In this document: positions 11,792 to 57,709 of the stretch, one piece after another
How positions within the stretch are numbered: the first letter of the stretch is position 1
How the letters are laid out: every line of letters begins with the position of its first letter
Assembly (NCBI GenBank): GCA_022821875.1
Contig: JAJECV010000104.1
Span: 1 to 58,432, forward strand
DNA length: 58,432 nt
Direction of reading: 5' to 3'
From: Rhodothermales bacterium
GTDB lineage: Bacteria; Bacteroidota; Rhodothermia; Rhodothermales; Bin80
Made by a program: the position numbers and the translations under genes
Notes under the pieces: generated by a model
Seen by the model: only the letters and a program-made list of their open reading frames with translations
What the model was told of the DNA's origin: nothing
Databases searched by the model: none

Positions 11792-12258
11792 ATTAGATCG
11801 GTCTATACGGTTCGTGCCTGCCGAACCTGAAAGTTTCCGCCTGGCTACCCCAAATATGCACAGGACAGGAACGCGGTTCACAGACTTCGCCCAGAAAGCA
11901 ATGGAGAGAGCTATTTTTACCGCATTCCCCGCGTGGTCATTCCGCGGTACGGCCGAACTACTTCAGCAAAAACAAACCCGTGAATATCATGAGCCTGCAC
12001 ACTGAACGATGCCCCGGATCAACCAAAGAATTGAAGATGAAAAAGTCCCCGATTTGCGAAGAGGATGCACCATATTCTATATCTTGTCAACCGATACATT
12101 CCTCGCCCACTGACATGATATCTCAAACGGAAAGAGTGGAACTGATCTCGAAGGTTGAAATTTCTGGCTTAACCGCTGTGATGCGGACTTTCCTGCATGA
12201 CCATCAAATAACCTGTATAAATTAGTTGCCTTTCCATGAGACGTACTTTGCTGAACCG
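11792..12258 (+). other. Gap between orphan methyltransferase and type III system
   Basis: About 470 bases with two short open frames (11754-12005 and 11980-12225) that overlap real genes or each other and resemble nothing I know. They could be remnants of a small gene. The mod promoter should lie here; no convincing TAnnTTTG element was found. Confidence 0.35.
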
Positions 12259-15200
12259 ATGAACCAGAAATACGAAAAACTGAAGACCCTGCTCAAGGAA
12301 CTCTTCCAGCTTGACCAGCCCGATCTTGACTTCGGGCTCTACCGGATCATGCACGCAAAAAGTGCTGAGGTATCGCAGTTTCTTGACAATGATCTGCTAT
12401 CCCAGATAAAGGCAGTGTTCGGGAGGCACAGGGGCGCTGACAAAAAATATCTGGAAAAACACATGTCTGAATTAATCACCGGTGTTAAGTTAGCCGGGAT
12501 GAATCCAGATGACTCGCCCAGGATTGCGGATATAAAAATACTGCTCGAAGCAGCCGTAGACTTCGACGCACTGGAAAGCGATGTCTACGATCACCTTTAC
12601 CGGTTCTTTAAGCGCTATTACTCCGATGGCGACTTTCTTGCCAAGAGAGTTTATAAACCGGGGGTCTATGCCATTCCTTACGAGGGCGAGGAGATCGCGC
12701 TCCACTGGGCGAATAAGGATCAGTACTACATCAAGACCTGTGAGTATTTGCGTGACTATGTGTTCCGGTTGAAACCGGAAGACGAAATAAATCCGATGCG
12801 CGTCCACTTTCGGCTTGTGGATGGCACCGAGGGGGAGCATGCCAATGTTAAAGCCGCCAACGGAAAGAACCGTGTGTTCATTCTGGTGGAACCAGGAGAA
12901 TCGGGGCATGACTTCATTGCCGAGGAGAATGATGACAAACAGAATTCCGAACTCGTCATCAACTTTAATTACCGTCCGGCCACACTCAGCGACTGGCCTG
13001 CGAAGAGACACAGTGCAAAGAGAAAGCCTCCTACTCAAACGGACCTCATTGATCTCGCTGTTAAGCGGATTCTGGATGTGACCAACTTATCGCCGTGGAT
13101 TGCGGAACTGAGCACACCGCATGTAATGGCAAATGGAGAAAAGGCGGACTACTGTCGGCTGGAAGCACATCTCCGGCGATATACCGCTCGGAACACTTTT
13201 GACTTTTTCATTCACAAAGATCTTGGTACCTTCCTCCGCCGTGAACTGGACTTCTACATTAAAAACGAGGTCCTTCACCTTGATGATGTAGAAAATGAGT
13301 CCATCCTTCGCGTTGAGAAGTACCTCCATAAATTCAAAATTATCCGCGTGATTGCCGGAAAGATTATTGACTTTCTGGTTCAGATTGAGGAGTTCCAGAA
13401 AAAACTGTGGCTAAAGAGGAAGTTTATCATTGAAACGCATTATTGCATCACTGCAGGCTGTATTCCGGAAAAATTTTACCCTGAGATCGTTGCAAATGAG
13501 GCGCAGAGGGAGGAGTGGATTACGCTCTATTCAATTGACCGGATTAATGGTGACCTAGTCACTCCCGGGTACAGCGGCAGGCTTTCGTCCGAATTTTTAC
13601 ATGGGCATCCAACACTGGTGGTGGATACACGGCATTTTGATTCGAACTTCATTGAACGAATACTTGAATCGATGGATGATATTGATGAAATTACCGATGG
13701 AGTACTTTTCCATGGAGATAATTTTCAATCGTTAACGGCTATGCAGAACCGCTATCGCGGCCTTGTTGACTGCATTTATATTGATCCCCCCTACAACACT
13801 GGCGAATCGGAAATCTCATACAAAAATTCGTATCTCCGATCATCTTGGTTAACATTAATGGCGAGCCGACTCGCATTGACACCAAGCTTGTTGAAGACTG
13901 ATCCCGTTCTATTCATAGCTATTGATGACTTCGAAATGGTCAACCTAGCTAAACTTATTGACACCGAATACCCCTCGCTTCGGCGGGAGACCATCATTAT
14001 CAACCACCATCCTCAGGGTGGTAAAGCAAAGACATTAGCGCACACTCACGAGTATATGATCGTTTGCGTACCGTCATCATCAGATCGAACACTTGTCGGA
14101 AGAATAATCAAAAACGGAGTTGAACATCGTCCATTCAAGCGAAGTGGAACGGCAGAAAGCAATTTTCGCTACGCTCGCCCGAACAGTTTCTTTGCTATTC
14201 TGATTGATCTCCAAAGCAAACAGATAATGGGGATTGAGTGCCCACCAGCAAGAGATGCCATCTACCCGACGAGGCCAACCAAAGAAGGATGGATCAGAGT
14301 CTATCCGATTGGGGCAAACGGAGAAGAAAGAGTTTGGCGTCGTGCTTATGAGTCTTGCCTCGAATTGATAGCCCGCAAAAAGTTAATCTGTACTAATAAG
14401 TCTACGATTTATCAATTGATTGAAGCAGAGGAACGCAAGTCAGCCCTGTTCAGCAACTGGGTAGATCCCCGCTTCAATGCTGGGACTTTTGGTGCAAACC
14501 TATTACGAAATATCATCGGTGAGCAAAATCCTTTTTCTTATCCGAAATCAGTACATACGGTCGAAGACTCTATCTTCGCGGCTGATCTTGGCAAACACCC
14601 CTGTATCCTTGACTATTTTGCAGGATCCGGTACTACCGGCCATGCTGTCATCAACCTCAATCGAGAAGACGGTGGCCGGCGTAAATTCATCCTTGTGGAA
14701 ATGGGGGATTACTTCGACACGGTTTTGCTTCCACGCCTCAAGAAGATTACGTTTACGCCAGATTGGAAAGATGGTAAGCCTGCACGTCTTGCCAATCCAG
14801 AAGAAGCAGAGCGCAGCCCGCGTATCATCAAGGTGGTACGCCTTGAATCCTATGAGGACACACTAAACAATCTGGTCACCCAACGGTCCGAAACCCAGCA
14901 GTCAGTCCTTGATGCTCCCAAAGCACAAGGAATGGATGGCTTCAAAGAGCAATATATCCTGCGCTATATGCTGGATATGGAGACACGTAATAGCCAGTCA
15001 CTCCTGAATATTCAGGCCCTTACCGATCCAACTTCTTATCAACTCAAAGTCAAGCGACCTGGATCGGATGAAAGTCGCAGAGTTAATGTCGATCTGATCG
15101 AGACCTTTAACTGGCTGATTGGTCTCAAAGTTGGACAAATCTCTGCCCCCCGGTCGTTTACGGTCTCGTTCAGGCGAGACACTGAAAAACGCCTTTGTCT

Positions 15201-15504
15201 GGAAGGCGAACTCAAGCAGGATGCGGGCGGGCCCTACTGGTTCCGCACCTTGACCGGCACCACGCTAGACGGACGTAAAGCACTTGTTATCTGGCGGAAA
15301 CTGACCGGTGACCACGAAAAAGATAATCTGGTTCTTGACGAGTGGTTCACCGCAGGCTATTTAAACACAGACTGTGAATTCGACACGATCTGGGTCAACG
15401 GTGGAAATAATTTAGAAAACATCAAGTCGCCCGGTGATCTGTGGAAGGTGCGGCTCATCGAAGATGATTTTCACCGTCTGATGTTTAACACGGAGGGGCA
15501 GTAA
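12259..15504 (+). CDS. mod: Type III-like restriction-modification methyltransferase (Mod), large form
   Basis: From the ATG at 12259 the product has 1081 residues. The catalytic motif D509-P-P-Y-N-T-G lies before the SAM motif '[10 protein letters not shown]' (from about 787), the beta-class order of type III Mod enzymes that methylate adenine. The region between them is the probable target-recognition domain. Most type III Mod proteins are about 550-700 residues; this one has a roughly 450-residue extension before the catalytic core, with a helical charged start, plus a long C-terminal region. The frame is also open from a TTG at 12226, but the ATG gives a cleaner start. Its stop overlaps the res start (TAATG), so the two are translationally coupled. 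Confidence 0.88.
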
Positions 15505-18500
15505 TGGCAAGAAGGCACCGATACATCCGCAAAAAACCTCAGATGCCGTTTGGCAGCAAACTGGTGCTCAATCAATGGCTCCTATCGCTGTTTAAGGCAA
15601 AACAGTTTGATGACCTGACGGCTCCCTTCAGGAGCGGGGCACACGATGGGCTGGACGAAAACAACATCCATCATATCCACCATGCTCTGAAAGGAATATT
15701 TATCAACCCAAACCAACTCCCTGAAGAACTTCTGCTGGAGTACGACCAGAATATTGTAAAGCATACGCAGCGTCTGAACGAGCGGCGGATTACCCGCGGG
15801 GAGGCACCAATCATCTGGAAATACTTTCAGTATCTCAGCCTGCTTTTTTGTGAGATCTATCTTGACCGATACTTTCGAGATCCAAAATCTCTCCTTATGG
15901 AATTGAATCGGCAAGTGCAAATTTACAATAGGGGAGCCCCGGATTCAGATCAGATTTCGGACTTTGATGCATCCGTGGAAGCATGGCCCCAACTCAATAA
16001 ACTTGCCTTTTGGATGGCGACCGGCAGTGGTAAGACACTTCTGATGCATATCAATATTCTGCAATACTGGGATGCCATGTCCCGACACGGCAGGCTGCAT
16101 AAACTGAACCGGATTCTACTCCTGACACCCAATGAAGGGCTCTCAAAACAGCACCTCCGTGAATTTGACCGGGCAGGCATTGATGCGGAGTTATTCGATA
16201 AGAAAGGGCGAGGGGTATTCAGCGGCTTATCCGTTGAGATCCTGGAAGTGACCCGGCTGCGTGACGAAATGGGAGATAAGACCGTTGCCGTCGAAGCATT
16301 TGAAGGAAATAATCTGGTGCTTGTGGATGAAGGGCACCGCGGGACCAGTTCCGGCAAAGGAGGGACATGGATGGGCTACCGTAATGCCCTGTGCGAGAGA
16401 GGCTTCTCGTTCGAGTATTCGGCAACCTTCGGTCAAGCAATCAAGGGAAACCCAGACCTTACGGATTTGTACGCGAAGAGCGTATTGTTTGACTACTCAT
16501 ACCGCTATTTCTATGCCGATGGATACGGCAAGGATTATCAGATTCTCAACCTTGACCGGCACACACACCATGATCACCTGGAGTTATATCTTGTGGCATG
16601 CCTGCTCACCTTTTTTCAGCAGCAGCGCCTGTTCAAGGAACAGGAAGAGCCTTTGCGTCCATTCAAGATTGAAAACCCTCTTTGGATCTTTGTCGGGGGG
16701 CGCGTAACCGCAACCTTAGCCAAACGGGATGCATCAGATATTATTGAGATCCTGCGGTTCCTGGACAGTTACGTAATGAATCGTGCAAAAAGCGTTCAGC
16801 ATATAGACAGGGTGCTGAGTGAGGGGTTAATTGCCTGGGATGGTACGAATCTTTTCTCCGGCCGCTTTCCATATCTCAATACCCGGGGACTCTCGTCCGA
16901 TCAGATCTATGATGAGACACTCAGTACAATTTTTAACGCACCCGGCGGGGGACAAATGTATATTGAGAATCTCAAGGGAGTGAGCGGCGAAGTCGCTCTG
17001 AGACTAGGTATAGAAAACGAAGCCTTCGGGCTAATCAATGTAGGCGACGATGCCAAGCTTGTTCGGCTTTGTGCAGAGGAAGGACTTCATACAGGAGAAA
17101 AAGAGTTTGCAGAATCATTCTTTCATAAACTGAATCAGCCGCATTCAAAGATCAATATTCTGATCGGCTCCAAGAAATTCACCGAAGGCTGGAACAGCTG
17201 GCGGGTTTCAACCATGGGGCTGATGAATGTGGGCAAAGGAGAAGGTGCACAGATTATTCAGTTATTCGGCCGGGGAGTACGACTCAAAGGTTGTAATATG
17301 AGTCTCATGCGCAGCAGTAAGGCACAACTTCCAGAGGGACTCAAGCCTCCTGAACACATCAGCCTGCTGGAGACCCTCGGCGTTTTTGGTATTCAGGCAG
17401 ACTATATGATACAGTTCCGGAATTTTCTCGTTGAGGAGGGACTTCCCATTAATAATGACCCTATCGAGTTCCTGTTACCTGTAATCAAAAATCTTGGAAA
17501 ACAGCCACTGAAGACGATTCGCATCAAAACGGAAATTAATGGTGTGAGTACGGAGCTGGAGGATGCATTCCGCATTTTGGCCCCCGTTCCAACTGTATCA
17601 GCACCAGACCCCGTCAGCGATCCTGATACCATTTATCTCCAGAAGCATAAGGTAAATCTCAACTGGTATCCGAAGATTCGTGCGATGAAGTCCGATGAAC
17701 TCAAGGGGGGAGATCGCAATGTTGTACCGAATGAAACTCATTTTCAGCCGGGTCATGTAGCCTTCATGGACTGCAACCGTCTTTACTTTGAACTTGAGCG
17801 CTTCAAGGCAGAGCGAGGCTGGTACAAATTGAATATCCCGCGACCTGTCATTGAGAAACTGCTTGCTGATCAGAGCTGGTACTGCCTTCAGATACCTGAA
17901 GAGGAAATGATCGGGGATTCCTACGAAAAGGTGCAAATATGGGAGGAGATTGCACTGGCTTTGCTAAAGAAGTATACCGAACGCTACTATACCTTCCGCA
18001 AGCGCATGTGGGAACTCCCCCACCTTGAGTATAGCACCGTGAGCGGTGACGATCCAAATCTCCTCGGTTTGAAAGAATCAGCAGACGAAGGGTATTATCG
18101 GATACTGATTGATCAGTCAGAGATAGAAATTGTCGAAAAATTAGAAGAACTCAAAGCGGCGATTGAAAAGGGAGAGATGAAACCCTGGGCTTTTCAAGGC
18201 ATCAAAGTACTTTGGTTTGGATGTCACCTCTATCAGCCCCTGCTTAGCCTGGATTCCACGGTCGTTCAGATTAGTCCTGCCCCGCTTAACAAAAGCGAGC
18301 GGGATTTTGTGGAAGATCTCAAGGCATTCCATGATGAGAATGAGACCTTCTTTAAGACCCGTGAATTGTACCTGCTGCGAAATCTCAGCCGCGGCCGCGG
18401 GGTCGGCTTCTTTGAAGCGGGCAATTTTCACCCTGACTTCATCCTGTGGCTCTTGGAGGACGGTCAGCAAAAGGTTATCTTTGTAGATCCCAAGGGAATC

Positions 18501-18737
18501 CGCAATCTCGGACCGAACGATCCCAAAATCCAGTTCTTTGAGACCATTAAGGAAATTGAAGACCGTCTGAGTGATCCGTCTGTCTCCCTCCACTCCTTTA
18601 TCGTGTCAAATACTCCTTCGGCCAAGATGCGCGAAATATGGAATATGAAGAAAAGTGAAATGGAAAAACGGAACGTACTCTTCCAGCGAGAAGACAAAGA
18701 TGTCTACATTGGAAAAATCCTGAATCCAACGGGATGA
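15504..18737 (+). CDS. res: Type III-like restriction enzyme subunit (Res), superfamily 2 helicase-nuclease
   Basis: A 1077-residue protein with helicase motif I 'WMATGSGKT' (Lys177), motif II 'LVDEGHRGT' (DEGH in place of DEAH), and motif VI '[11 protein letters not shown]'. A C-terminal PD-(D/E)XK-type nuclease is suggested by '[14 protein letters not shown]' followed by 'VIFVDPKG' near residues 975-995. In type III systems Res and Mod form a complex, ATP hydrolysis drives communication between two head-to-head sites, and cutting occurs at a fixed distance. A strong GGAGGGG ribosome site lies at 15492-15498, inside the end of mod, before the overlapping ATG at 15504. Both subunits look intact. 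Confidence 0.88.
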
Positions 18738-26410: not shown

Positions 26411-26831
26411 GATGGACATATATCACCTACCCGTTCCTTTCGGGAGACCGTACAGGCGGGAGACTTCACGCCAAAAGATGCCTGTGGACAATTTAATGTC
26501 TGGGGAAACGAGGTTTCTGCAAAACGAATAATCCAGACTAAAAAGCGATCCTGAGTACACTCAGATGAACAAAAACCTTCAAAATTGAGAGTTCTGCAAG
26601 ATGCCCCCTTATCCGTGATTACTCCGCATGGAACGTGTGCTGACAAACCGTACGACCATCTGCGATCCGCATGTTCAAATCTCTGATATTGTGTTCTCCG
26701 GAAAATTCGTGTACAGACCTGTCCAGGTGCTTTCATTTTCATACATCATTCGTTATCCCTATCTCAATGCAAAGTTGTCCGCATGATTGCAAAAATCGGC
26801 GGCATATTGTCATTTACGAAACAAAAAATCT
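26411..26831. other. Intergenic region before the oxygenase pair
   Basis: About 420 bases with no gene I can support. A long frame reading into the oxygenase gene from 26787 lacks similarity between the two paralogues, so it is treated as leader. Confidence 0.35.
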
Positions 26832-26839
26832 TATCTTTG
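26832..26839 (+). promoter_or_regulatory. Bacteroidota-type -7 promoter element
   Basis: TATCTTTG matches the TAnnTTTG consensus of the Bacteroidota primary sigma factor. It lies 20 bases before the ATG of the first oxygenase gene. A TTG-containing stretch about 24 bases upstream may serve as the -33 box. Confidence 0.55.
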
Positions 26840-26858
26840 GACTCCAAACTTATCCACA

Positions 26859-29288
26859 ATGGCAAACCAAGACATTACCCCTGAACAGGCGAACAAACAG
26901 CGCCTCATTGAACTGCTTGAATCCGTTGATCGTCCGGGAAATTACTGCGTAGGGGGGAGCCTGCCGGTATTCATGCCGCAAATCACCCTTGAAAATGTGG
27001 GCACCCTCTCATTTCCCGTACCCCAGGTACAGATTGACGCACTGGTTGAGATGGCGGAGCAAGCCCCCTACGGCAAAGGAACCAAGACGCTCACCGATAC
27101 GTCCGTACGTGACTGCTGGCAGATTGATGCCAGTCAGATTCGCGTAACCGGCAAAGCCTGGGCGGATTCGTTCAAGGAAATCACGAACCTCGTGAGCGAG
27201 GGTTTGGGGCTTAACCAGGGACAGCTCGGTGCCAAACTATACAAGCTTCTTGTCTATAAGGAGGGCGGATTTTTTGCCGCCCACCGGGATACGGAGAAAG
27301 TTCCAGGGATGGTTGCAACCCTGTCCCTATCGTTGCCGACTCCTGGAGAAGGCGGGGAACTCTCTATTCGCCACGGAGATCAGGAAACCGTCTTCAACAT
27401 GAATGCAGAGGAACCATCCGAGCTTTCGTATGCTGCATTTTATGCGGATTGCCTCCATGAGGCCCGACCGGTGACGAAAGGCCATCGCATCTCTCTCATC
27501 TACAACCTGTTTGTTCAATCCGGCGAACAGTGGAGTAGTGCACCCGATTATAGTGAATTGGTGGGGAAGGTCAAGGAATGTCTGGCAGACTGGGTGGACA
27601 GTGGTACAACCGAGAAAATCGTTTGGGTACTTGATCACTCCTACAGCGAAGAAGGACTCTCGTTTAACACCTTGAAGGGTACTGACGCAGCGGTGGCACA
27701 AGTTCTGGCAGAGGCCGCCGGTCAGGCAGACTGTGACATGCACGCTGCTATACTGCACATTCAAGAGACGGGCGATCCAGAAATAGATTATGACGGCAGT
27801 TACTGGGGAGGCACCATCGTTGGCTCGACCATTGAAGAACTGCATGACCGTACAGAGCATCTGGAAAACTGGGTCGCACATGATGACAGCCACCCACCTT
27901 TCGGCAATATTTCCGTCCGTGAGGGAGAACTTATTCCGATTGACTCAACGGATGACCTGGACCCTGACGAGGAACGGATAGAAGAATACATGGGCAACGC
28001 CGGCCCGACACTGGAGCTCATCTACCGTCTGGGATCGCTTGTCGTGTGGCCTAAGTCAAACACCCTGAACATTGTGGCGCGGGGGGGCCTCCGGCACGCC
28101 GTGTCCTGGGTGGCAACCCAATGTGATAAGGTGAGCGGCACCGAAATGCAGCGCATGCTGTCTAAACTGACAGACATGTGGCCGGAAAGCCGCAGTTTCT
28201 ATAACGACCATAACCGGCCCGTAATGCTGCAGATTCTAGGCACAAACGGCAATGCGGACCTGGCGGCAGATTTTCTCAATCAAACCGTGCTGATCCACTA
28301 CGATGGCAGTGAAAATGAGCAACTCGCCAAACTCATGCCCGTGGTCGGCCCTGAGTCCGCCGAAGAGTTTTTGCCAAAATTGATAGAACAGTATCTGATC
28401 AAGTATCCGAAAGAGGTTCTATCTCTGCTTGCACGGATCACAGAGATTTTGGGACAGGCGGAACCGGTCTGGCACAAGATGATGCAGGGGCCGGCAAAAC
28501 TTGCCCTCTCATCAGTTCGCCCGTTACTGGAAAATGTTACAGAAATCGTCACTAGAGTGCACTACGATAATGCTCGGGGGAATAATGAGTGTGGCATTTC
28601 GAAAGCCTATAATGATAACCCCCTTGATTCCACTATAATCCGCAGCATTTTCTTGCTCACTTGGCACCTGAATCTGACACAGGAATCTGTTGAAACGGCA
28701 GCGACAATTGCAAACTTCCCGAAGGCAGTCACACCAGATCGCATGGTACCCGAGGCGCTGGCAGATCTTTCCAGGATTGAACGAGTTCGCAGTACCGAGG
28801 CCTACAGGTTACTCTGGAGGCAATCTGTTGATTTCCTGCTCCAGCGCAGCAGTGCTCTCCCTGAAGCCCCGGTCAACTGGATCATTGATGCTGACATTCC
28901 CTGCACCTGCGAACTCTGTACTGATCTGCAGGAATTTTGTCTGAACCCTGATCGCCGCACCAAAAGCTTCAAGGTCGCCAAGGCATCCCGTCGGATTATC
29001 CACAAGACGATTCAAGTGCTTGACCTGAACATGGATCATGTCACCGAGCGTAAGGGAAGCCCCTACACCCTGCACTGTACCAAGAACCGAGACGGTCACA
29101 AACGCAGGCTTATTGAGTACTCCGAAGATGTAAAGCATATTGAACGTCTGTTGACACTGACTCCCGAGAATGCAACAGGAAACGCAGAGGTACGACGGAT
29201 AAAGCGTCTTGAAGCCGCCAAGAGGACGTTTCAGAACAGCCGGTCAGACATGGATCCCCCCGTCTCCAAATCGTATCCTGACAATTGA
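26859..29288 (+). CDS. Large 2OG-Fe(II) oxygenase, paralogue 1
   Basis: An 809-residue protein whose residues about 50-220 are a prolyl-4-hydroxylase-like 2-oxoglutarate/Fe(II) dioxygenase domain. The iron triad is H142-R-D144 ('FFAAHRDTEK') and H200 ('DCLHEARPV'), and Arg210 in 'GHRISLIYNL' would bind 2-oxoglutarate. The long remainder is helical and unassigned, and it carries a conserved Cys cluster 'CTCELCTDLQEFC' near residue 685. No signal peptide, so cytoplasmic. The ATG at 26859 is chosen because the second copy begins with the same block ('QxxHR/QRLIELL'). A near-identical gene follows 155 bases downstream. The substrate (protein side chain, nucleic acid or small molecule) is unknown. 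Confidence 0.82.
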   Translation: MANQDITPEQANKQRLIELLESVDRPGNYCVGGSLPVFMPQITLENVGTLSFPVPQVQIDALVEMAEQAPYGKGTKTLTDTSVRDCWQIDASQIRVTGKAWADSFKEITNLVSEGLGLNQGQLGAKLYKLLVYKEGGFFAAHRDTEKVPGMVATLSLSLPTPGEGGELSIRHGDQETVFNMNAEEPSELSYAAFYADCLHEARPVTKGHRISLIYNLFVQSGEQWSSAPDYSELVGKVKECLADWVDSGTTEKIVWVLDHSYSEEGLSFNTLKGTDAAVAQVLAEAAGQADCDMHAAILHIQETGDPEIDYDGSYWGGTIVGSTIEELHDRTEHLENWVAHDDSHPPFGNISVREGELIPIDSTDDLDPDEERIEEYMGNAGPTLELIYRLGSLVVWPKSNTLNIVARGGLRHAVSWVATQCDKVSGTEMQRMLSKLTDMWPESRSFYNDHNRPVMLQILGTNGNADLAADFLNQTVLIHYDGSENEQLAKLMPVVGPESAEEFLPKLIEQYLIKYPKEVLSLLARITEILGQAEPVWHKMMQGPAKLALSSVRPLLENVTEIVTRVHYDNARGNNECGISKAYNDNPLDSTIIRSIFLLTWHLNLTQESVETAATIANFPKAVTPDRMVPEALADLSRIERVRSTEAYRLLWRQSVDFLLQRSSALPEAPVNWIIDADIPCTCELCTDLQEFCLNPDRRTKSFKVAKASRRIIHKTIQVLDLNMDHVTERKGSPYTLHCTKNRDGHKRRLIEYSEDVKHIERLLTLTPENATGNAEVRRIKRLEAAKRTFQNSRSDMDPPVSKSYPDN

Positions 29289-29443
29289 GCCGTGTCCAGA
29301 AACAATCTCACGCCAAAAAGCAACTGGAGAATCATAACTTTCACGATGAGAAAGTCCACCTGTCCTGAGGCGGATACAGCAGGCGGAGAACCTGAGATGC
29401 AGGATTGTATTTACCGTTTTATTCGGTTCCAGACATAACCATC

Positions 29444-31834
29444 ATGGCAAGCCAAGAGACTCATTCTGAACAGATAAACAAACACCGCCTCATTGAACTG
29501 CTCAGGTCTATTGACCGTCCGGGAGATTACTGTGCAGGAGGGACGCTGCAGGTGCCGATGCCGCAGATCAGTCTCAAAAATATGGAACCCCTCTCATTTC
29601 CTGTGCCAAAGGCGCAAATCGACGCACTGATTGAGATTGCGGAACGCGCCCCCTATGGTAAAGGGACCAAAACACTCACCGATACATCCGTACGTGACTG
29701 CTGGCAGATTGATGCACGAAAAATCCGAATAACCGGCAAAGCATGGGCGAATTCTTTCAAGAAGATCATGAACCTCGTGAGTGATGGCTTAGGGCTTCAA
29801 CAGGCACAACTTGATGCAAAACTATACAAACTCCTCGTCTACACGGAGGGGGGATTCTTCGCAGCCCACCGGGATACAGAGAAAGTGCGGGGGATGGTGG
29901 CAACCCTCTCTCTGTCGCTGCCAACTTCCGGAGAAGGCGGGGAACTCTCCATTCGCCACGCAGGGAAAGAAACCGTCTTCAACATGAATGCTCAGGAGCC
30001 ATCCGAGTTATCGTATGCTGCATTTTATGCGGACTGCCTTCACGAAGTCCAGCCGGTGACAAAAGGCCACCGCATCTCACTTGTATATAATCTGTTCATA
30101 CGATCTGGCAAGAAATGGACCGGGGCACCTGATTATACAGACTTAACCGATAAGGTAAGGGAATGTCTAGTAGACTGGATCGACAGCGGTGAGACCGAAA
30201 AAATCGTCTGGATGCTTGATCACTCATACAGCGAAGGAGGCCTCTCGTTTAATACGTTAAAAGGCACCGACGCAGCGGTGGCACAGGTTCTGGGAGAGGC
30301 TGCCGACCATACAGGCTGTGATATGCACGCCGCCGTGCTATACATTCAGGAAACGGGCGAACCTGATCTAGATTATGATCCCGACGATTGGGGAAAAGTC
30401 ATAATTACTTCAACCTTTGCGCACTTCATTGAACGTGATGAATATCTGGAAAACTGGATCGCCCGTGATGGAAGCCGCCCGCCTTTCGGAGAACTTTCAA
30501 TTCAGGAGGAAGAACTGCTTCCTACTGCTTCAATTGACGGATTAGAACCTGACGAGGAACTGCTGGAAGAATACATGGGCAACTACGGTCCAACCCTAGA
30601 CCTCATCTACCGCGTCGCCGCCCTTGTTGTATGGCCCAGAACGAATACTATCAAAATTGTGTCAAGTGCTGAATTCGGAAATGCAGTGTCCTGGGTAGCG
30701 ACACAGTCTAACCAGATCAGTGATGCTGCAATGCGACACCTGCTAGTTCAGTTGGCAGAACTGTGGCCAGAAGATCAAGACAGAGATAACGATGATCATC
30801 GTTCGACCGTGCTTGGATTCTTGAGTACCGCCGGTAATGCGGGCATGGCCACGGACTTTCTTGATCGGGTGATACAAGTCCACTACAACGGCAGCGAGAA
30901 CAAGCAACTTGCCGACCTCATGCCCCTGATCGGTCCTGATACTGCTAAGGAATTCTTGCTGCACTTGATCGAACAGCATATGCTGACACATCCCACAGGG
31001 ATTCTGTCCTTACTGGCAATGATTACAGAAAAACTGGCGCAGCATGAACGGGTATGGTACGATATGATACGAGAAACCGTGCAATCCATTATTTCGCAGC
31101 TTCCCACAGTGCTGAAGAAGATTACCGAAACCGTCAGCAGAATGCCCCAAAACGATGGCCATGGGAAGAATGAGTGTATTACCTGGGGGCCTGATTGCGA
31201 AAATCCCCTTGATTCTACGGCAATCCATAATCTTTTTGCACTCACCTGGCATCTGGATCTCCCACAGGAGTTCCTGGAAGCGGCAACGACGATTGCCAAC
31301 TTCCCAAAGGTCGCTACACCAGACCGTATGCTCCCCGAAGCTCTGGCAGACCTGTACAAGATTGAACAAGTCCGCAGTACCGAGACCTACAAGCTACTCT
31401 GGAGGCAGTCCGTTGACTTCCTGCTCCAGCGTAGCAGTAGTGCTCCCGCCGAAAAATCCAGTGACTGGATCATTGCTGTTGATGTTCCCTGCACTTGCGA
31501 ACCCTGCACGGAACTGCAGGCATTTTGCCTGAACCCTAGTAGACGTACAAAAACCTTCAGGATTGAGGATGCCGCGCGTCAGCGTATTCAGGAAGCGATT
31601 GACGGACTTGGTCTGGACATCAGCTACGTAACTGTGCGTAAGGGCCACCCTTATGCGCTGAGATGCACGAAGACACTGAAGGGACACAAGCGCAGACTAG
31701 CCCAATACTCCGAGGATATCAATTATATTGAGCGCCTGCTGATGCTAATGCCAAAGGATGAGGCAAAAAATGCGGAGGCAGATCGGATAAAGCACCTTGA
31801 GGCAGCCAAGGCGGCGTTCCCAGACAACCGTTAG
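29444..31834 (+). CDS. Large 2OG-Fe(II) oxygenase, paralogue 2
   Basis: A 796-residue tandem duplicate of the preceding gene. The dioxygenase core is kept with the same residues ('FFAAHRDTEKV', 'DCLHEVQPVTKGHRISLVYN'), as is the Cys cluster 'CTCEPCTELQAFC'. The N-terminal third is almost the same as in paralogue 1, while the C-terminal half differs more, including short insertions and deletions. Both copies are full length and keep all iron ligands, so both probably work, perhaps on different targets. The frame is open from 29405, but alignment with the paralogue supports the ATG at 29444. The gene is convergent with the TIR/SLOG operon. Confidence 0.82.
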   Translation: MASQETHSEQINKHRLIELLRSIDRPGDYCAGGTLQVPMPQISLKNMEPLSFPVPKAQIDALIEIAERAPYGKGTKTLTDTSVRDCWQIDARKIRITGKAWANSFKKIMNLVSDGLGLQQAQLDAKLYKLLVYTEGGFFAAHRDTEKVRGMVATLSLSLPTSGEGGELSIRHAGKETVFNMNAQEPSELSYAAFYADCLHEVQPVTKGHRISLVYNLFIRSGKKWTGAPDYTDLTDKVRECLVDWIDSGETEKIVWMLDHSYSEGGLSFNTLKGTDAAVAQVLGEAADHTGCDMHAAVLYIQETGEPDLDYDPDDWGKVIITSTFAHFIERDEYLENWIARDGSRPPFGELSIQEEELLPTASIDGLEPDEELLEEYMGNYGPTLDLIYRVAALVVWPRTNTIKIVSSAEFGNAVSWVATQSNQISDAAMRHLLVQLAELWPEDQDRDNDDHRSTVLGFLSTAGNAGMATDFLDRVIQVHYNGSENKQLADLMPLIGPDTAKEFLLHLIEQHMLTHPTGILSLLAMITEKLAQHERVWYDMIRETVQSIISQLPTVLKKITETVSRMPQNDGHGKNECITWGPDCENPLDSTAIHNLFALTWHLDLPQEFLEAATTIANFPKVATPDRMLPEALADLYKIEQVRSTETYKLLWRQSVDFLLQRSSSAPAEKSSDWIIAVDVPCTCEPCTELQAFCLNPSRRTKTFRIEDAARQRIQEAIDGLGLDISYVTVRKGHPYALRCTKTLKGHKRRLAQYSEDINYIERLLMLMPKDEAKNAEADRIKHLEAAKAAFPDNR

Positions 31835-40291: not shown

Positions 40292-41401
40292 ATGTTGGTT
40301 GATAATCAATGGAGCGAACGTATCAGATCAGGGGAGAGTGCGTCTTTGATCCGATGCGTTGACTTATTTTGCGGAGCAGGTGGACTGACACATGGACTCA
40401 CCTCGGTGGGAATTAATGTCGGGCTTGGCATTGATATTGATCCGAGCTGCGAATATCCGTACACAGCAAACAATAATGTCTCGTTTCTCTTAAAATCAGT
40501 CAAAGACACCACTTCTGCGGACATTTCAAAATTCTTTGATGACGCCCCCTTAAGGATGTTGGCAGGATGTGCACCCTGTCAGCCGTTTTCGTATTACAGC
40601 CGGGCACGGTTAAACTCGTCTGACCGGCGATGGCATCTCCTAGAGCAGTTTTCGCGTCTCGTTCGGGAGACTACCCCCCATCTCGTTACTATGGAAAATG
40701 TTCCGCTACTGCAGCGTGAAGATGTATTTTCCAGTTTTCATACAGAACTTCGGCAGCAAGGATTTGATGTGATTTATCGTGTGGTCAACTGTGCTGACTA
40801 CGGAGTACCTCAACAGCGGAAAAGACTCATCCTGCTTGCTTCTCGTCTGGGTCCTATCAGCCTGATTGCGCCAGAGACCCCGGAGGGATATCGTATTACC
40901 GTAAAAGATGCAATTGGCAATCTTGTTCCCCTGAAGGCGGGCGAACGCTGCAGTTCCGATTCAATGCATCAGGCCTGTGACCTCTCCCCTATTAATCTGC
41001 AGCGTATTCAGGCCTCAAAGCCGGGTGGGAGCTGGCGGGACTGGGATGAGCATTTGATCGCCAAATGTCATCGCAAAAAATCTGGACGTACATATAGTAG
41101 TGTTTACGGCAGAATGGTGTGGGATAAGCCGTCACCTACGATGACAACACAGTTTTATGGCTTTGGTAACGGCCGTTTTGGACACCCCGAACAGGACCGG
41201 GCAATTTCGCTGAGAGAAGGTGCAATTCTGCAGAGTTTTCCCGTGAATTACAAATTCACCCCTGAAGACACATCTGTTTGTAAGAGAACCGTCGGCCGAT
41301 TGATCGGTAACGCTGTTCCAGTCAAACTTGGGGCGGCGATTGGTAAAAGCATCGTCTCCCATGTCGAAAAACGGCTCGAATCAAAAGAGCGGATACTATG
41401 A
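40292..41401 (+). CDS. C5-cytosine DNA methyltransferase
   Basis: A 369-residue enzyme with the ordered C5-methyltransferase motifs: I 'CVDLFCGAGGLTHGL', IV 'GCAPCQPFSYYSRA' with the catalytic Cys of PCQ, VI 'VTMENVP', VIII 'PQQRKRLILLASR', and the C-terminal 'RLIGNAVPVKLG' (motif X). It methylates cytosine in a short DNA site. The next gene is a GHKL-nuclease of a type II restriction family, so this is the modification half of a type II system. Length is typical of family M.HgiDII-like enzymes. The recognition site cannot be read from sequence. Confidence 0.92.
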   Translation: MLVDNQWSERIRSGESASLIRCVDLFCGAGGLTHGLTSVGINVGLGIDIDPSCEYPYTANNNVSFLLKSVKDTTSADISKFFDDAPLRMLAGCAPCQPFSYYSRARLNSSDRRWHLLEQFSRLVRETTPHLVTMENVPLLQREDVFSSFHTELRQQGFDVIYRVVNCADYGVPQQRKRLILLASRLGPISLIAPETPEGYRITVKDAIGNLVPLKAGERCSSDSMHQACDLSPINLQRIQASKPGGSWRDWDEHLIAKCHRKKSGRTYSSVYGRMVWDKPSPTMTTQFYGFGNGRFGHPEQDRAISLREGAILQSFPVNYKFTPEDTSVCKRTVGRLIGNAVPVKLGAAIGKSIVSHVEKRLESKERIL

Positions 41402-41559
41402 CGTTTCCCATGTCTTGTTGTTTTCTTATGATGCTGTTGCCACTAACATTGCAATCCAAGGCTCTTCTGGGCTCCAGGAACATCGGTATTGGACTTCAAA
41501 AGTATCATCAAAACAGTGCCAATTTAGGATCAACGATAAAAACATAACCTTAAAGCTAT

Positions 41560-43554
41560 ATGAGTCTCCCAAAATACAGTGACCCATCCCCGAGTACGGA
41601 GCAAGCCTTTGAAATGAGGGTGGGGTTGAATGTACTTGATCACCTGGGAATTAACCTGTACAGCAACATCGCTGCCGTTCTGACCGAGGTGATCGCCAAT
41701 GCATGGGATGCGGATGCAAAAAATGTCACCATCCAGATTGATCATGGAGAAGACAGCCGTATTACGATGACTGACGATGGAGTCGGCATGACGATTGACG
41801 ACATCAACAACAAATATCTTCTGGTTGGGTATCGCCGACGTGATCAGGATATGAATAATGGGAGGCGCACGAAAAAGGGACGAACGGTTATGGGGCGAAA
41901 AGGATTAGGGAAGCTTTCGCTATTCTCAATCGCAGATGTTATTGAAGTTCAGTCTGCAAAAGATGGGCAGTCTCATGGGTTTCGGATAAGCGCTGTTAAA
42001 ATTCGCGAAGCCGCAAGAAACCAGTCCCGGATCTATTATCCTGAATCCTTGAACAGAAACAAACTTGATATCAAGCAAGGCACCAAAATTGTCCTCAAAG
42101 AAATCAAACGTCAGCGATTAGAGCCTGGTACAAGAGCATTACGCAAGAGACTCGCAAGACGATTTTCCATTATTGGAGAGACGCACGATTTCAGGATTAC
42201 GATCAATGAGGAACCGGTTACATATCATGACCGGGATGATCTCTCGAAAGTTCAATTTCTTTGGATGCTGGGAGAGTCGGATATTGAATCTGGAGCCGCC
42301 CCCGGATTAATCAAGAAAGCAAACCTTCCAGGTCAACTTGATCACTGGGATAAGAACTGGAAAGTTCGTGGATGGATCGGAACAGTCCAGAAACCGAAGC
42401 AACTTGACAACCCGGATGTTGGCAACCTCAATAGCATTGTGGTCTTTGCCCGTGGGCGTCTGTTTCACGAAAACATCCTGGATAAAGTCAATAATGGGAG
42501 GCTCTACACAAAATACCTGACAGGGCAAATTGAGGCGGATTTTCTTGACGATGACCATAATGCTGACATTGCCACCAGTGATCGGCAGCGCATTCAGGAG
42601 GATGATCCGCGCTACATCCAATTACTCGAGTTTCTCAAGTCAAGTCTAAAGAAAATTGACGGACAGTGGAACGAATTGCGTCACAGAAGCGAACTGAAGC
42701 AAGTTAAGGCAACATTCCCTGCTCTGGATGCATGGTTCAAATCTCTGCCCGAAGGTTACAGGAATCAGGCAGAAAAACTAGTTGCGAAATTGAGTTCTCT
42801 TCCATTAGAGGAGGAAGATGATCGGAAACTTCTGTATAAACATGGGATCCTGGCATTTCAAAGAATGAAGGTTCGCGGGTCAACGAGGGAATTGGTCGAT
42901 CACATCGGAGAACCAGGAAAACTTCTGCAAATTCTCTCGGATCGGGACGCATTTGAAGCCTCACTTTACAGAGATATCATCAGGTCACGTCTTGAAGTTA
43001 TTGAGCAATTTCAATCTCTCATAGAGGATAACCAGAGGGAAAAACTACTCCAGGAGTTTCTCTTTGATCATCTATGGCTTCTTGATCCCGCATGGGAAAG
43101 GGCGACCTCCAGTGCTGTGATGGAATCACGTCTAACAGAGGAAGGCGTGATCATTCAGGATATGACAGCAAAGGAGAAACTTGGCCGTGTTGACATAGCC
43201 TATCGCACAGATGCGGGAAAGCATATTATTGTTGAATTGAAGAGAGCCGAACGAAAGATAAAGCTCCTAGACCTAGTGGAACAGGGGCAAACCTATGTAG
43301 ATAAGGTGAAGAAAATACAGCAAAATAAAGGGGCTAATTCACCTAATATTGAAGTTGTATTTGTTGTCGGGAAGCCCTTGGACGAGGAAAGCAACAATCC
43401 TGCACGTGTTAAGGCATCCATGGAATCGGTGTCACCGGGCAGTCGTATTGTGCACTATGATTTTCTTATACAGAATGCTCTGGAAGCCTATTCGGAGTAC
43501 TTGGAGAAAAGTGCAGAGATCGACAAGATCGACGAGATTATTGATCAATTATAA
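41560..43554 (+). CDS. GHKL ATPase-nuclease fusion, BbrUII/HgiDII-type restriction enzyme
   Basis: A 664-residue protein. Residues about 20-200 are a GHKL (Hsp90/MutL/histidine-kinase) ATP-binding fold: N-box 'LTEVIANAWDADA', 'MTDDGVGM', and 'GRKGLGKLSLF'. The C-terminal third has a PD-(D/E)XK nuclease core with Asp545 in 'GRVDIAY' and Glu559/Lys561 in 'IIVELKRAER'. This matches the BbrUII/HgiDII family, in which a GHKL ATPase domain accompanies a type II restriction enzyme. With the cytosine methyltransferase 158 bases upstream it forms a complete restriction-modification pair. HgiDII itself recognises GTCGAC; sharing that site here is only a guess. MORC-like silencing ATPases are the closest eukaryotic analogue. 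Confidence 0.8.
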   Translation: MSLPKYSDPSPSTEQAFEMRVGLNVLDHLGINLYSNIAAVLTEVIANAWDADAKNVTIQIDHGEDSRITMTDDGVGMTIDDINNKYLLVGYRRRDQDMNNGRRTKKGRTVMGRKGLGKLSLFSIADVIEVQSAKDGQSHGFRISAVKIREAARNQSRIYYPESLNRNKLDIKQGTKIVLKEIKRQRLEPGTRALRKRLARRFSIIGETHDFRITINEEPVTYHDRDDLSKVQFLWMLGESDIESGAAPGLIKKANLPGQLDHWDKNWKVRGWIGTVQKPKQLDNPDVGNLNSIVVFARGRLFHENILDKVNNGRLYTKYLTGQIEADFLDDDHNADIATSDRQRIQEDDPRYIQLLEFLKSSLKKIDGQWNELRHRSELKQVKATFPALDAWFKSLPEGYRNQAEKLVAKLSSLPLEEEDDRKLLYKHGILAFQRMKVRGSTRELVDHIGEPGKLLQILSDRDAFEASLYRDIIRSRLEVIEQFQSLIEDNQREKLLQEFLFDHLWLLDPAWERATSSAVMESRLTEEGVIIQDMTAKEKLGRVDIAYRTDAGKHIIVELKRAERKIKLLDLVEQGQTYVDKVKKIQQNKGANSPNIEVVFVVGKPLDEESNNPARVKASMESVSPGSRIVHYDFLIQNALEAYSEYLEKSAEIDKIDEIIDQL

Positions 43555-51242: not shown

Positions 51243-52910
51243 ATGAGAGTTGGCGGCTTGATTTTTTTGAATCTTGCAATCATTCTGTCCGGGTGTAGTT
51301 CGCCTGATCCCTTGTCACGCCCAAATGTGATTCTCGTGATCACAGATGATCAGGGATATGGGGATATCGGTGCACATGGGAATTCCGCCATCAAAACCCC
51401 CGTACTTGATCGCCTGCACGACGAAAGTGTACGTCTGACAGATTTTCATGTAGATCCAACCTGCTCGCCGACGCGGGCGGCACTCCTGACAGGACGCTAT
51501 TCCACCCGAACCGGGGTTTGGCACACCATCATGGGACGCTCTTTGATGGCACCTGAAGAGGTTACACTGGCCGAACTGTTCGCTGAGGCGGGGTACCAGA
51601 CAGGAATGGTCGGCAAATGGCATTCAGGAGATAATTACCCGCTTCGTCCACAGGATCAGGGCTTTCAGGAAGCCTTCTATCATCCGGCGGACGGGGTTGG
51701 ACGGGGTCATAGAGCAGACCACGGGATCTTTGACCGATGTGTGGTTTGATGATGCACTTCGTTTCATTGAGGAGCATCAACATGAACCGTTCTTTCTGTA
51801 TCTGGCAACGAATGCACCGCATAGTCCGTATTTTGTGGAGGAAAAATATGCGGCGCCATGCCGGGAGGCAGGCTTTTCGGATGTTATGGCACGCTTCAGC
51901 GGCATGATTACCAATATTGACGACAACATGGGGCGGCTATTGGCAAAACTGGATTCGCTTGAGTTGAATGAGAATACGATCTTGATCTTCATGACCGATA
52001 ACGGTTCCGCAGAGGGATGGATCAATCGGCGTGAGGGAGAGGGAACCTGGGGAGGATTCAATGCGGGGATGCGCCACGGAAAAGGATCCGAATATGACGG
52101 GAGGCATCGCGTTCCCTTTTTCTTACGATGGCCGGCTGCCGGCTGCACGGACTCCCGGGAAATAGATGCCCTGACGGCACATATTGACGTATTGCCCACG
52201 CTGGCCGAACTCTGTGACCTGTCCTTACCGGCAGATCTGGACGGGATAAGCCTAGTGCCAATGCTGAATGGGAATGATCCCGTTGAACGTATACTTTTTG
52301 TACACTCACAGCGCGTTCCCTACCCGATCAAATGGCGTAAGTCCGCCGTGATGACCGGGCGCTGGCGACTGGTAAACCAGAATGAGCTGTATGATATCCT
52401 GAAGGATCCCGGGCAGGAATCCAATCTTGTGGAACAGTTCCCGGATGTAGCCCATGAATTACGCGCCGCATATGAACGGTGGTGGAGCCATCTTACGCCG
52501 GCCTTCGACAAATATGTGCGGATCGGTCTCGGAGCGGATGCAGAGAATCCCCTGACGCTGAATCCGCATGACTGGCATGTAAACCGTCAGTCTGAATCCA
52601 TATGGAATCATCGGTAAGTCCAAAATGGTCTGACCGGCAACGGCTATTGGGCGGTTGATCTGCTCCAGTCCGGCAGCTGCACTTTTGAACTGCGCAGATG
52701 GCCGAGGCATATGGATAAGTCTATGGAGAGGATTACGGCACGCATAAAAGTCGGAGAACAGGAAACTCAAATCGCCCTTACTCCAGATCAGACTTCTGCA
52801 GCCTTTACGTTCCCGCTCACGCGGGCCCCACTGCGATACAGATCTGGCTGGTTCAACCGGATGGCAGGGAGCATGGCGCCTATTTTGTCTATGTGGAGCA
52901 AATAACATGA
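51243..52910 (+). pseudogene. Sulfatase pseudogene 2 (two frameshifts and an in-frame stop)
   Basis: An arylsulfatase with lipobox 'ILSGC' (Cys18), '[18 protein letters not shown]' and the formylglycine motif C-S-P-T-R. Near 51689-51707 two copies of GGACGGGGT stand side by side, and the frame changes there: '[16 protein letters not shown]' continues only in another frame as '[19 protein letters not shown]'. That frame ends at a TAA (52615-52617), yet coding-like sequence goes on after it ('YWAVDLLQSGSCTFELRRW'). A last frameshift near 52830 restores 'IQIWLVQPDGREHGAYF', with a stop at 52908-52910. Three lesions make it clearly non-functional. It was once in an operon with the cytochrome c gene. 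Confidence 0.83.
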
Positions 52911-55669: not shown

Positions 55670-55957
55670 CTTCAGGCGGTATACCGGTTTGGGCAGGGAC
55701 CTGGAGGATCACGGCCCTTGCAGAGCAGATCTGTCCAGAACAACACTCCCTCCAGATACTTTGACCGCAGGGGGCAATAGAAAACATAGAGCGGCCGCCG
55801 CCGGGCACTTTTGCCGGAGAAAAAAGCCTCGCCTCAATGCATGAACAGCCTGCCCCCGGAACTAAAACGACAGGATCAAATGAAAAATCAGTATACTAGT
55901 ACAAACTCACCATTCTCCAACCCCGCTTAATCCGGGGCATTCCCCTTGAACAAAGAG

Positions 55958-57709
55958 ATGATTTTTTTCAATCACAACAAATGGCTGCGGTTCACAGTGT
56001 GGATTGGAGCACTGATTTTCCTGACCTGCTGCCTGAGAGGCGGTGCAAATGCGGCCTTTGCCCTTGAAATGGATCCGGATCGCTGGCCGATCAAATTGTC
56101 GGCATCCGATGTGCCGTCTGCCGAACCCTCCTCCAATACTGCGGCAGTCGTGATCCGCCGCTGTGACGACATCAATACAGCAAGTGCCGGCGATCTTCAG
56201 CGCGTCAAAGGCATCGGCGCGGCCAAGGCACAGGCGATTATCAACTATCGCAATCAGTTTGGTCCATTTGAGTCTCTGAACGAGTTAACGCGCGTCAAAG
56301 GCATTGGGCCGGCCACGATTGAGAATTTCCGCAGCGCAAACTTTTGCGTGCCGGAATCCACCAGATCTGGCAATTCCGCCGAACCCGAAGCAGAGCCCCC
56401 ATCCAATGATCCAGCGCCCACTGACTGCAGCAACATCAATACAGCGAGTGCCACGGATCTTCAGCGTGTCAAGGGGATCGGTACATCTAAGGCGCAGGCG
56501 ATCCTGGACCACCGCAATCAGATCGGGACTTTTGAGTCTCTGGACGAGTTGACGCGTGTAAAGGGCATTGGGCCGGCCACGATTGAGAATTTTAGAGAGG
56601 CAGGTTTCTGTGCGCGGGAATCTACCAGTACCGACGACGAGTCCCAAGCACAGGAACCCTCCGAGGATTCAACCGACAGCAATTGCACCAACATCAATGC
56701 GGCAAATGCCTCGGACCTTGAGCGCGTTAAAGGAATTGGCCCGGCCAAAGCGCAGGCGATTCTGGACTATCGGAAGCGGTCTGGCACCTTTCAGTCCCTG
56801 GATGAACTGGCACGCGTAAGGGGGATTGGGCCTGCTACCGTAGCGAACTTCCGCAGTGCAGGCTTTTGCATCCACGAATCTTCCGGTACAGGGAATCATT
56901 CCGAGGATCAGTCGCAATCCTCCCTAGATGATTCAACGACCACTGCCAGCAGTTGTGACAACATCAATGCAGCGAGCGCTGCGGACCTTGAGCGGGTTAT
57001 GGGAATTGGCCCCATCAAAGCACAATCTATTCTGGACTTACGCCATGCGAACGGAGCATTCCGTTCCCTGAACGCCCTGCTTGAAGTTCAGGGGATCAGT
57101 CCTCCCACGCTCAGAAATTTCCTTGATGCCGGGTTTTGTGTTGAGGTGCCGGACACCGCCGCACCTCTGGAAAAGCCCGCTCCCGTACCCTATGCTAGAA
57201 GCCTGTACGGATCCTGGTGGGACGAAGATGGTGACTGTCAAGACACGAGAGAGGAGGTATTAATCGCTAACAGCCGCATTGCGGTAAATCTGGATGAGGC
57301 CGGTTGCGAAGTCATTGCGGGCGAATGGCTTGATGTGTATACCGATTCGGTCATTGTAGATCCCAAATGGATTGACATTGACCATTTTATTCCACTGGCC
57401 GAGGTGCATCGCAGCGGGGGGATGGAGTGGACGTACGTAGATCGTGTGATGTATGCGAATGATTTGAGTAAGGATGGAGCACTGATCCCCGTCTCGGCCG
57501 GCACGAACCGATCAAAAGGAGACCGTGACCCTGCACAATGGCTCCCGCCAAACGAGAGTTATCACTGTCAATATATTGAGCGCTGGATCGCCCTCAAGGA
57601 AACATGGAAACTAACCATGGATCCTGATGAGCACCAGGCCGTAGAGGAGATACAGTCCAAATGCATGCAGGATCCCGAAATCTCCGCATCCAGTGGCCTG
57701 GATCAGTGA
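55958..57709 (+). CDS. Exported protein with four helix-hairpin-helix modules and an HNH nuclease domain
   Basis: About 583 residues. The N-terminus has a signal peptide ('LRFTVWIGALIFLTCCLRGG'). Four ComEA-like helix-hairpin-helix modules follow, each of the form 'NIN-AS--DL-RVKGIG-AKA' with a second 'RVKGIGPATI' hairpin and a closing Cys. They start at about 56164, 56428, 56692 and 56962 and are joined by acidic Ser/Pro-rich linkers. The C-terminal domain has 'YGSWWDEDGDCQDTREEVLI' and 'DIDHFIPLAEVHRSGG' with His476, then 'NRSKGDRDPAQWLPPN', the pattern of secreted HNH/DUF1524-type endonucleases. It should bind DNA non-specifically and cut it outside the cytoplasm. A TTG at 55946 could replace the ATG at 55958. 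The DNA-level repeat units are about 264 bp. Confidence 0.82.
   Translation: MIFFNHNKWLRFTVWIGALIFLTCCLRGGANAAFALEMDPDRWPIKLSASDVPSAEPSSNTAAVVIRRCDDINTASAGDLQRVKGIGAAKAQAIINYRNQFGPFESLNELTRVKGIGPATIENFRSANFCVPESTRSGNSAEPEAEPPSNDPAPTDCSNINTASATDLQRVKGIGTSKAQAILDHRNQIGTFESLDELTRVKGIGPATIENFREAGFCARESTSTDDESQAQEPSEDSTDSNCTNINAANASDLERVKGIGPAKAQAILDYRKRSGTFQSLDELARVRGIGPATVANFRSAGFCIHESSGTGNHSEDQSQSSLDDSTTTASSCDNINAASAADLERVMGIGPIKAQSILDLRHANGAFRSLNALLEVQGISPPTLRNFLDAGFCVEVPDTAAPLEKPAPVPYARSLYGSWWDEDGDCQDTREEVLIANSRIAVNLDEAGCEVIAGEWLDVYTDSVIVDPKWIDIDHFIPLAEVHRSGGMEWTYVDRVMYANDLSKDGALIPVSAGTNRSKGDRDPAQWLPPNESYHCQYIERWIALKETWKLTMDPDEHQAVEEIQSKCMQDPEISASSGLDQ

Follow-up and report, generated by a model that had tools for sequence, protein, structure and literature searches.

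The fusion of a DNase with an HhH domain of ComEA type has a characterised precedent. DNaseTA of Thioalkalivibrio sp. K90mix combines a DNaseI-like EEP domain with a ComEA-derived (HhH)2 domain and is active up to 4 M NaCl, the (HhH)2 domain being the key to activity at this salt concentration (PMC4777378). Likewise, bovine DNaseI gained salt tolerance when it was fused to the (HhH)2 domain of DNaseTA or to the ComEA domain of Bacillus subtilis (PMC4777378). Human EEPD1 (9yi2) also carries tandem ComEA-like HhH domains ahead of a nuclease-fold domain, but it is a repair protein that works inside eukaryotic cells, and its domain is of the EEP type. ComEA itself normally has a single module, lacks a nuclease and works together with ComEC. 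Among nucleases, endonuclease I of Vibrio cholerae (EndA) is an exported enzyme with the motif EWEH, in which E79 is the metal residue and H80 the base, while N127 lies on a helix (PMC5305256).

Here we describe an ORF from a Rhodothermales bacterium, located in a window of 58,432 nucleotides (the whole stretch of DNA that was analysed), which joins four ComEA-type HhH modules to one HNH nuclease domain behind a putative export signal. On its sequence, the protein would belong with DNaseTA to a class of HhH-tethered exported DNases. In both, a DNase is joined to ComEA-type HhH, which in DNaseTA raises affinity as well as salt tolerance; DNaseTA, however, has an EEP fold with one C-terminal HhH domain, whereas the present protein has a His-Me finger domain preceded by four N-terminal ones. 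All parts of the protein and the principle of an HhH-tethered DNase are already known. What is new is the GmrSD_C-type HNH domain as the fusion partner, the number of modules, the cysteine pair in each of them and the setting in a competence-free family. The features of the locus are as follows.

55946..57709, + strand: whole ORF of 587 aa with a TTG start; the in-frame ATG (Met5) at 55958 is the start taken in the sequence-only reading
55946..56062, + strand: putative Sec-type signal peptide (residues 1-39) with probable cleavage after AFA and no lipobox (hydropathy; AFA followed by LE in the sequence)
56162..56347, + strand: HhH module 1, residues 73-134, terminal Cys pair, two GIG hairpins (Pfam, ortholog alignment)
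56426..56611, + strand: HhH module 2, residues 161-222, terminal Cys pair, two GIG hairpins (Pfam, ortholog alignment)
56684..56869, + strand: HhH module 3, residues 247-308, terminal Cys pair, two GIG hairpins (Pfam, ortholog alignment)
56954..57139, + strand: HhH module 4, residues 337-398, terminal Cys pair, second hairpin degenerate (GIS) (HHH_3 search, ortholog alignment)
57191..57676, + strand: His-Me finger nuclease domain (HNH, GmrSD_C/DUF1524-type) with four conserved Cys, residues 416-577 (Pfam, alignment, model)
57374..57385, + strand: catalytic motif D-I-D-H (D479, H480), invariant in 24 and 22 aligned sequences
57506..57508, + strand: N521, invariant in the alignments, in model helix 518-524

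In the ORF listing of the window, the 587-aa frame is the longest at 55946-57709 (+). Comparison with the nearest ortholog gave a dN/dS of 0.22 overall and 0.13 for the HNH domain, and the gene is therefore under constraint. Residues 18-29 form an N-terminal hydrophobic segment with a mean Kyte-Doolittle value of 2.37, and hydropathy revealed no second membrane-like segment elsewhere in the protein. The four orthologs likewise begin with a hydrophobic segment. The segment at residues 18-29 and the AFA-LE context that follows fit a Sec signal peptide, a call made from hydropathy and cleavage context rather than by a dedicated predictor. Lipoprotein anchoring was rejected on account of the missing lipobox. 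The T9SS sorting domain TIGR04183 was not among the best 25 of the 35 NCBIfam families listed for the whole protein, and residues 407-587 searched alone gave no NCBIfam match; T9SS secretion was accordingly dismissed for want of a C-terminal tail. A neighbouring ORF does have such a tail (TIGR04183, 28.5 bits against a cut-off of 23). The protein is thus predicted to cross the inner membrane, with release from the cell as a possibility. The mature protein contains 12 cysteines, eight in the HhH modules and four in the HNH domain. Since all 12 are kept in the alignment of intact orthologs, they imply six probable disulfides and an oxidising compartment.

Pfam assigned four HHH_3 modules (PF12836; E 1.5e-75 for the whole protein) and one GmrSD_C domain (PF07510; E 5.6e-07, 30 bits against a cut-off of 23), which bears out the array-plus-nuclease architecture proposed from sequence alone. 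With 57.8 to 73.9 bits per module in the window's own genome, the HHH_3 matches lie far above chance (cut-off 27), and the NCBIfam ComEA models TIGR01259 and TIGR00426 match all four modules (E 9e-79 and 8.5e-66, respectively). Each module is 62 residues long. The sequence-only reading had noted a conserved cysteine closing each module; this cysteine is there, but it is really one of a pair that occupies both ends, exactly 61 residues apart (C73/C134, C161/C222, C247/C308 and C337/C398). These positions are kept in the aligned orthologs, except in module 2 of L024, where one extra residue lies between the cysteines. AlphaFold modelled the four modules with a pLDDT of about 80-92, whereas the linkers scored below 50 and are disordered; a short strand pair adjoins the cysteines at both ends of each module. 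In Foldseek the modules matched ComEA of Geobacillus and Thermus (8dss, 2duy; rmsd 1.2-1.3 over ~60 residues), with about 36% identity. The hairpin-1 lysine (GIGxxKA) is retained in all four modules. In module 4 the first hairpin is retained, while the second reads GIS and is GIG in none of the orthologs. ComEA-type modules of related genomes do not have the cysteine pair. In a module tree, a supported branch (97/93) separated the 20 modules of the arrays from 13 further modules of ComEA type in related genomes. This tree, of 63 columns and with midpoint rooting, suggests that the array likely arose by internal duplication, without proving it.

The sequence-only reading had proposed an exported DNA-binding nuclease. 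The nuclease part of this proposal withstood the alignment of 24 sequences from many phyla, in which D479, H480, N505 and N521 are invariant and no catalytic residue has been lost. The HNH domain was modelled with confidence (pLDDT 91.8), and its best structural matches were V. cholerae EndA (2g7f; Z 10.0, 130 aligned residues, rmsd 3.5) and Vvn (1ouo; Z 9.7), both of them periplasmic or extracellular endonuclease I enzymes, well above the next group, Cas9-HNH, at Z 5.6 and lower. Foldseek alone returned no match for this domain at E 0.001, and a PDB sequence search with it found no direct match. D479, H480 and N521 appear to match E79, H80 and N127 of EndA, a likeness of fold and residue order rather than an active-site superposition. 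Endonuclease I nevertheless differs in its lack of an HhH array, in an identity of only 10-15% and in its Pfam family, which is absent from the matches of the present protein. Neither is the two-domain make-up of the type IV restriction enzyme GmrSD found here, as Pfam gave no match to GmrS (DUF262, PF03235) in the same protein. Closer in sequence are the 'HNH endonuclease family proteins' of Streptomyces and many other phyla, signal-peptide HNH/DUF1524 proteins with a nuclease domain that is 38-49% identical and has the same cysteines and catalytic motif. These, however, consist of the nuclease domain alone, mostly with a signal-peptide-like start, or join it to LTD or Excalibur domains. A second exported-looking GmrSD_C HNH protein of 265 aa is encoded elsewhere in the window's own genome (L005, contig C144), where it adjoins a gene of the same orientation for a PLD-like nuclease.

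Intact copies of the gene were found in the window's own genome and in the same-genus genomes G001, G002 and G004. The copy in G005 (L026:3644-5460) is interrupted within the HNH domain: an in-frame stop follows the NxSKG motif, and at this place a conserved Arg has been substituted as well. Because the gene is missing in five of the nine congeners (G003 and G006-G009) and broken in another, it is dispensable. The named copies L023 to L026 come from MAGs, one of Rhodothermales that is named in the jk18x style and others labelled 'Bacteroidetes' that bear CAR names. The jk18x bins are derived from Caribbean Ircinia sponges (PMC9531527), and from PMC8163846 we infer that CAR stands for Carteriospongia; the genus with this architecture is sponge-associated. 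None of 80 named loci outside the genus has HhH and HNH in one protein, and no other genome among 114 of the order and about 395 of the phylum has the two together in a contig scan with two peptide patterns that sampled other phyla rather than exhausting them. Matches in phages and plasmids were HNH-only or HhH-only, and an origin from either was discarded. The architecture had been called unusual, and the exact fusion was indeed found only in this one sponge-associated genus; the idea of a DNase tethered by HhH, on the other hand, had already been characterised (PMC4777378).

Nucleases have been fused to modules of ComEA type on more than one occasion, since a related genome of the same class encodes a protein (L110:1465-3177, -) with PLD-like, SNase and ComEA-type HhH domains. 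This protein resembles the present one in joining nuclease-type domains to ComEA-type HhH, but its nuclease folds are different and it has a single module. In several other genomes of the class, HhH matches fall in open frames about 650-700 aa long.

We consider it probable that the protein is a non-specific DNase that acts outside the cytoplasm and that its HhH array, stiffened by disulfides, tethers it to DNA, with a gain in both affinity and salt tolerance. The protein would be exported by Sec through the inner membrane and fold in an oxidising compartment, either the periplasm or the outside. One disulfide would staple every HhH module and two the HNH domain. The modules, as beads on flexible acidic linkers, would grip the DNA backbone without sequence preference, and the array would keep the C-terminal His-Me finger domain on DNA for repeated non-specific cuts, even at marine salt. 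A likely use would be the degradation of DNA outside the cytoplasm for nutrient scavenging or the clearance of extracellular DNA in the sponge matrix. Several findings count against this reading. The modules have a low net charge (-1 to +4), and that of the HNH domain is strongly negative (-20); moreover, a route past the outer membrane is called for with neither a T9SS tail nor a secretin, and the gene is dispensable.

Some ComEA-type HhH domains, such as PsbU of photosystem II, are structural only, which likewise counts against a DNA tether. The fold matches of the modules include PsbU, which is ComEA-like in fold and is not known to bind DNA. The array could thus be a structural or protein-binding scaffold, leaving the HNH domain alone to contact DNA, and the near-neutral modules and the loss of the second hairpin of module 4 in all orthologs agree with this. 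We nonetheless regard a scaffold as quite unlikely, as neither the two GIG hairpins nor the lysine of hairpin 1 have been lost from modules 1-3; in V. cholerae ComEA the HhH1 lysine pair is essential for DNA binding (PMC3879209). Modules of ComEA type could also point to a ratchet that feeds transformation, and DNA uptake was indeed among the roles first proposed. The protein shares the HhH domain with ComEA, but it is not a small non-catalytic protein, and the fused nuclease would destroy the cargo. Furthermore, none of the 16 genomes of the family (G000-G015, one of them single-contig) has ComEC, whereas 42 of 43 genomes from elsewhere in the order encode it. Nine family genomes, including the single-contig one, were searched for a secretin and for true PilT. 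None has a secretin, while both order controls have one, and their PilT-family matches are weak and partial compared with strong ones in the controls. DprA does occur in most family genomes, but its family has other roles, and it was rejected as a rescue for uptake. DNA uptake is therefore very unlikely, and a part for this protein in transformation is barely conceivable.

The same absence of a secretin from the genus, combined with a signal peptide and no T9SS tail, favours the periplasm, and a purely periplasmic role is possible. The enzyme might then stay there as a barrier that destroys incoming phage or other foreign DNA, in line with the periplasmic Vvn among its nearest folds and with the reported enrichment of defence genes in sponge symbionts (PMC8163846). 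We judge such a barrier to be rather unlikely, since PADLOC gave no match and no defence gene is common to the neighbourhoods of the gene. Of the anti-phage role suggested earlier, only this barrier survives as a rival; membership in a known defence system was rejected for lack of a PADLOC match. The C-terminal position of the nuclease domain in an exported protein would also suit a secreted antibacterial toxin that uses the HhH array to hold target DNA. This idea, too, had been raised before, and it fared poorly: the protein has no T9SS tail, Pfam detected no known toxin-delivery domain, and homologous HNH proteins are mostly solitary with signal-peptide-like starts. No conserved neighbour was found as a candidate immunity gene, an accA region being common to L024 and L025 (two species) only, with nothing shared with the window or L026. 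A toxin is thus highly improbable.

For the tethered DNase, a further step can be put forward tentatively, although we find it doubtful: that a disulfide-locked multivalent HhH array, evolved in a lineage without uptake machinery, has made ComEA-type modules serve an exported nuclease as a processive clamp. If so, salt-proof DNases could be reached by a modular path, with the number of modules and the decay of module 4 as means of tuning the enzyme. In this genus, ComEA-type modules have outlived competence and persist only within a nuclease. With its cysteine pair, each module would be a DNA-binding unit stapled independently of the others, which may be of use in building salt-tolerant DNases. 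In ecological terms, the finding suggests that sponge-associated Rhodothermales degrade DNA.

Other features of the window may be mentioned. Adjacent large ORFs of 1092 and 1077 aa at 12226-18737 (+) resemble a type III restriction-modification pair, and at 40292-43554 (+) a DNA cytosine methyltransferase-like ORF precedes a large ATPase-like one, of GHKL type as judged by eye. Tandem paralogs of 833 and 809 aa at 26787-31834 (+) have the same make-up, with an N-terminus that by eye is 2-oxoglutarate/Fe oxygenase-like. The overlapping ORFs at 51243-51749 and 51697-52617 (+) resemble halves of one sulfatase, perhaps frameshifted.
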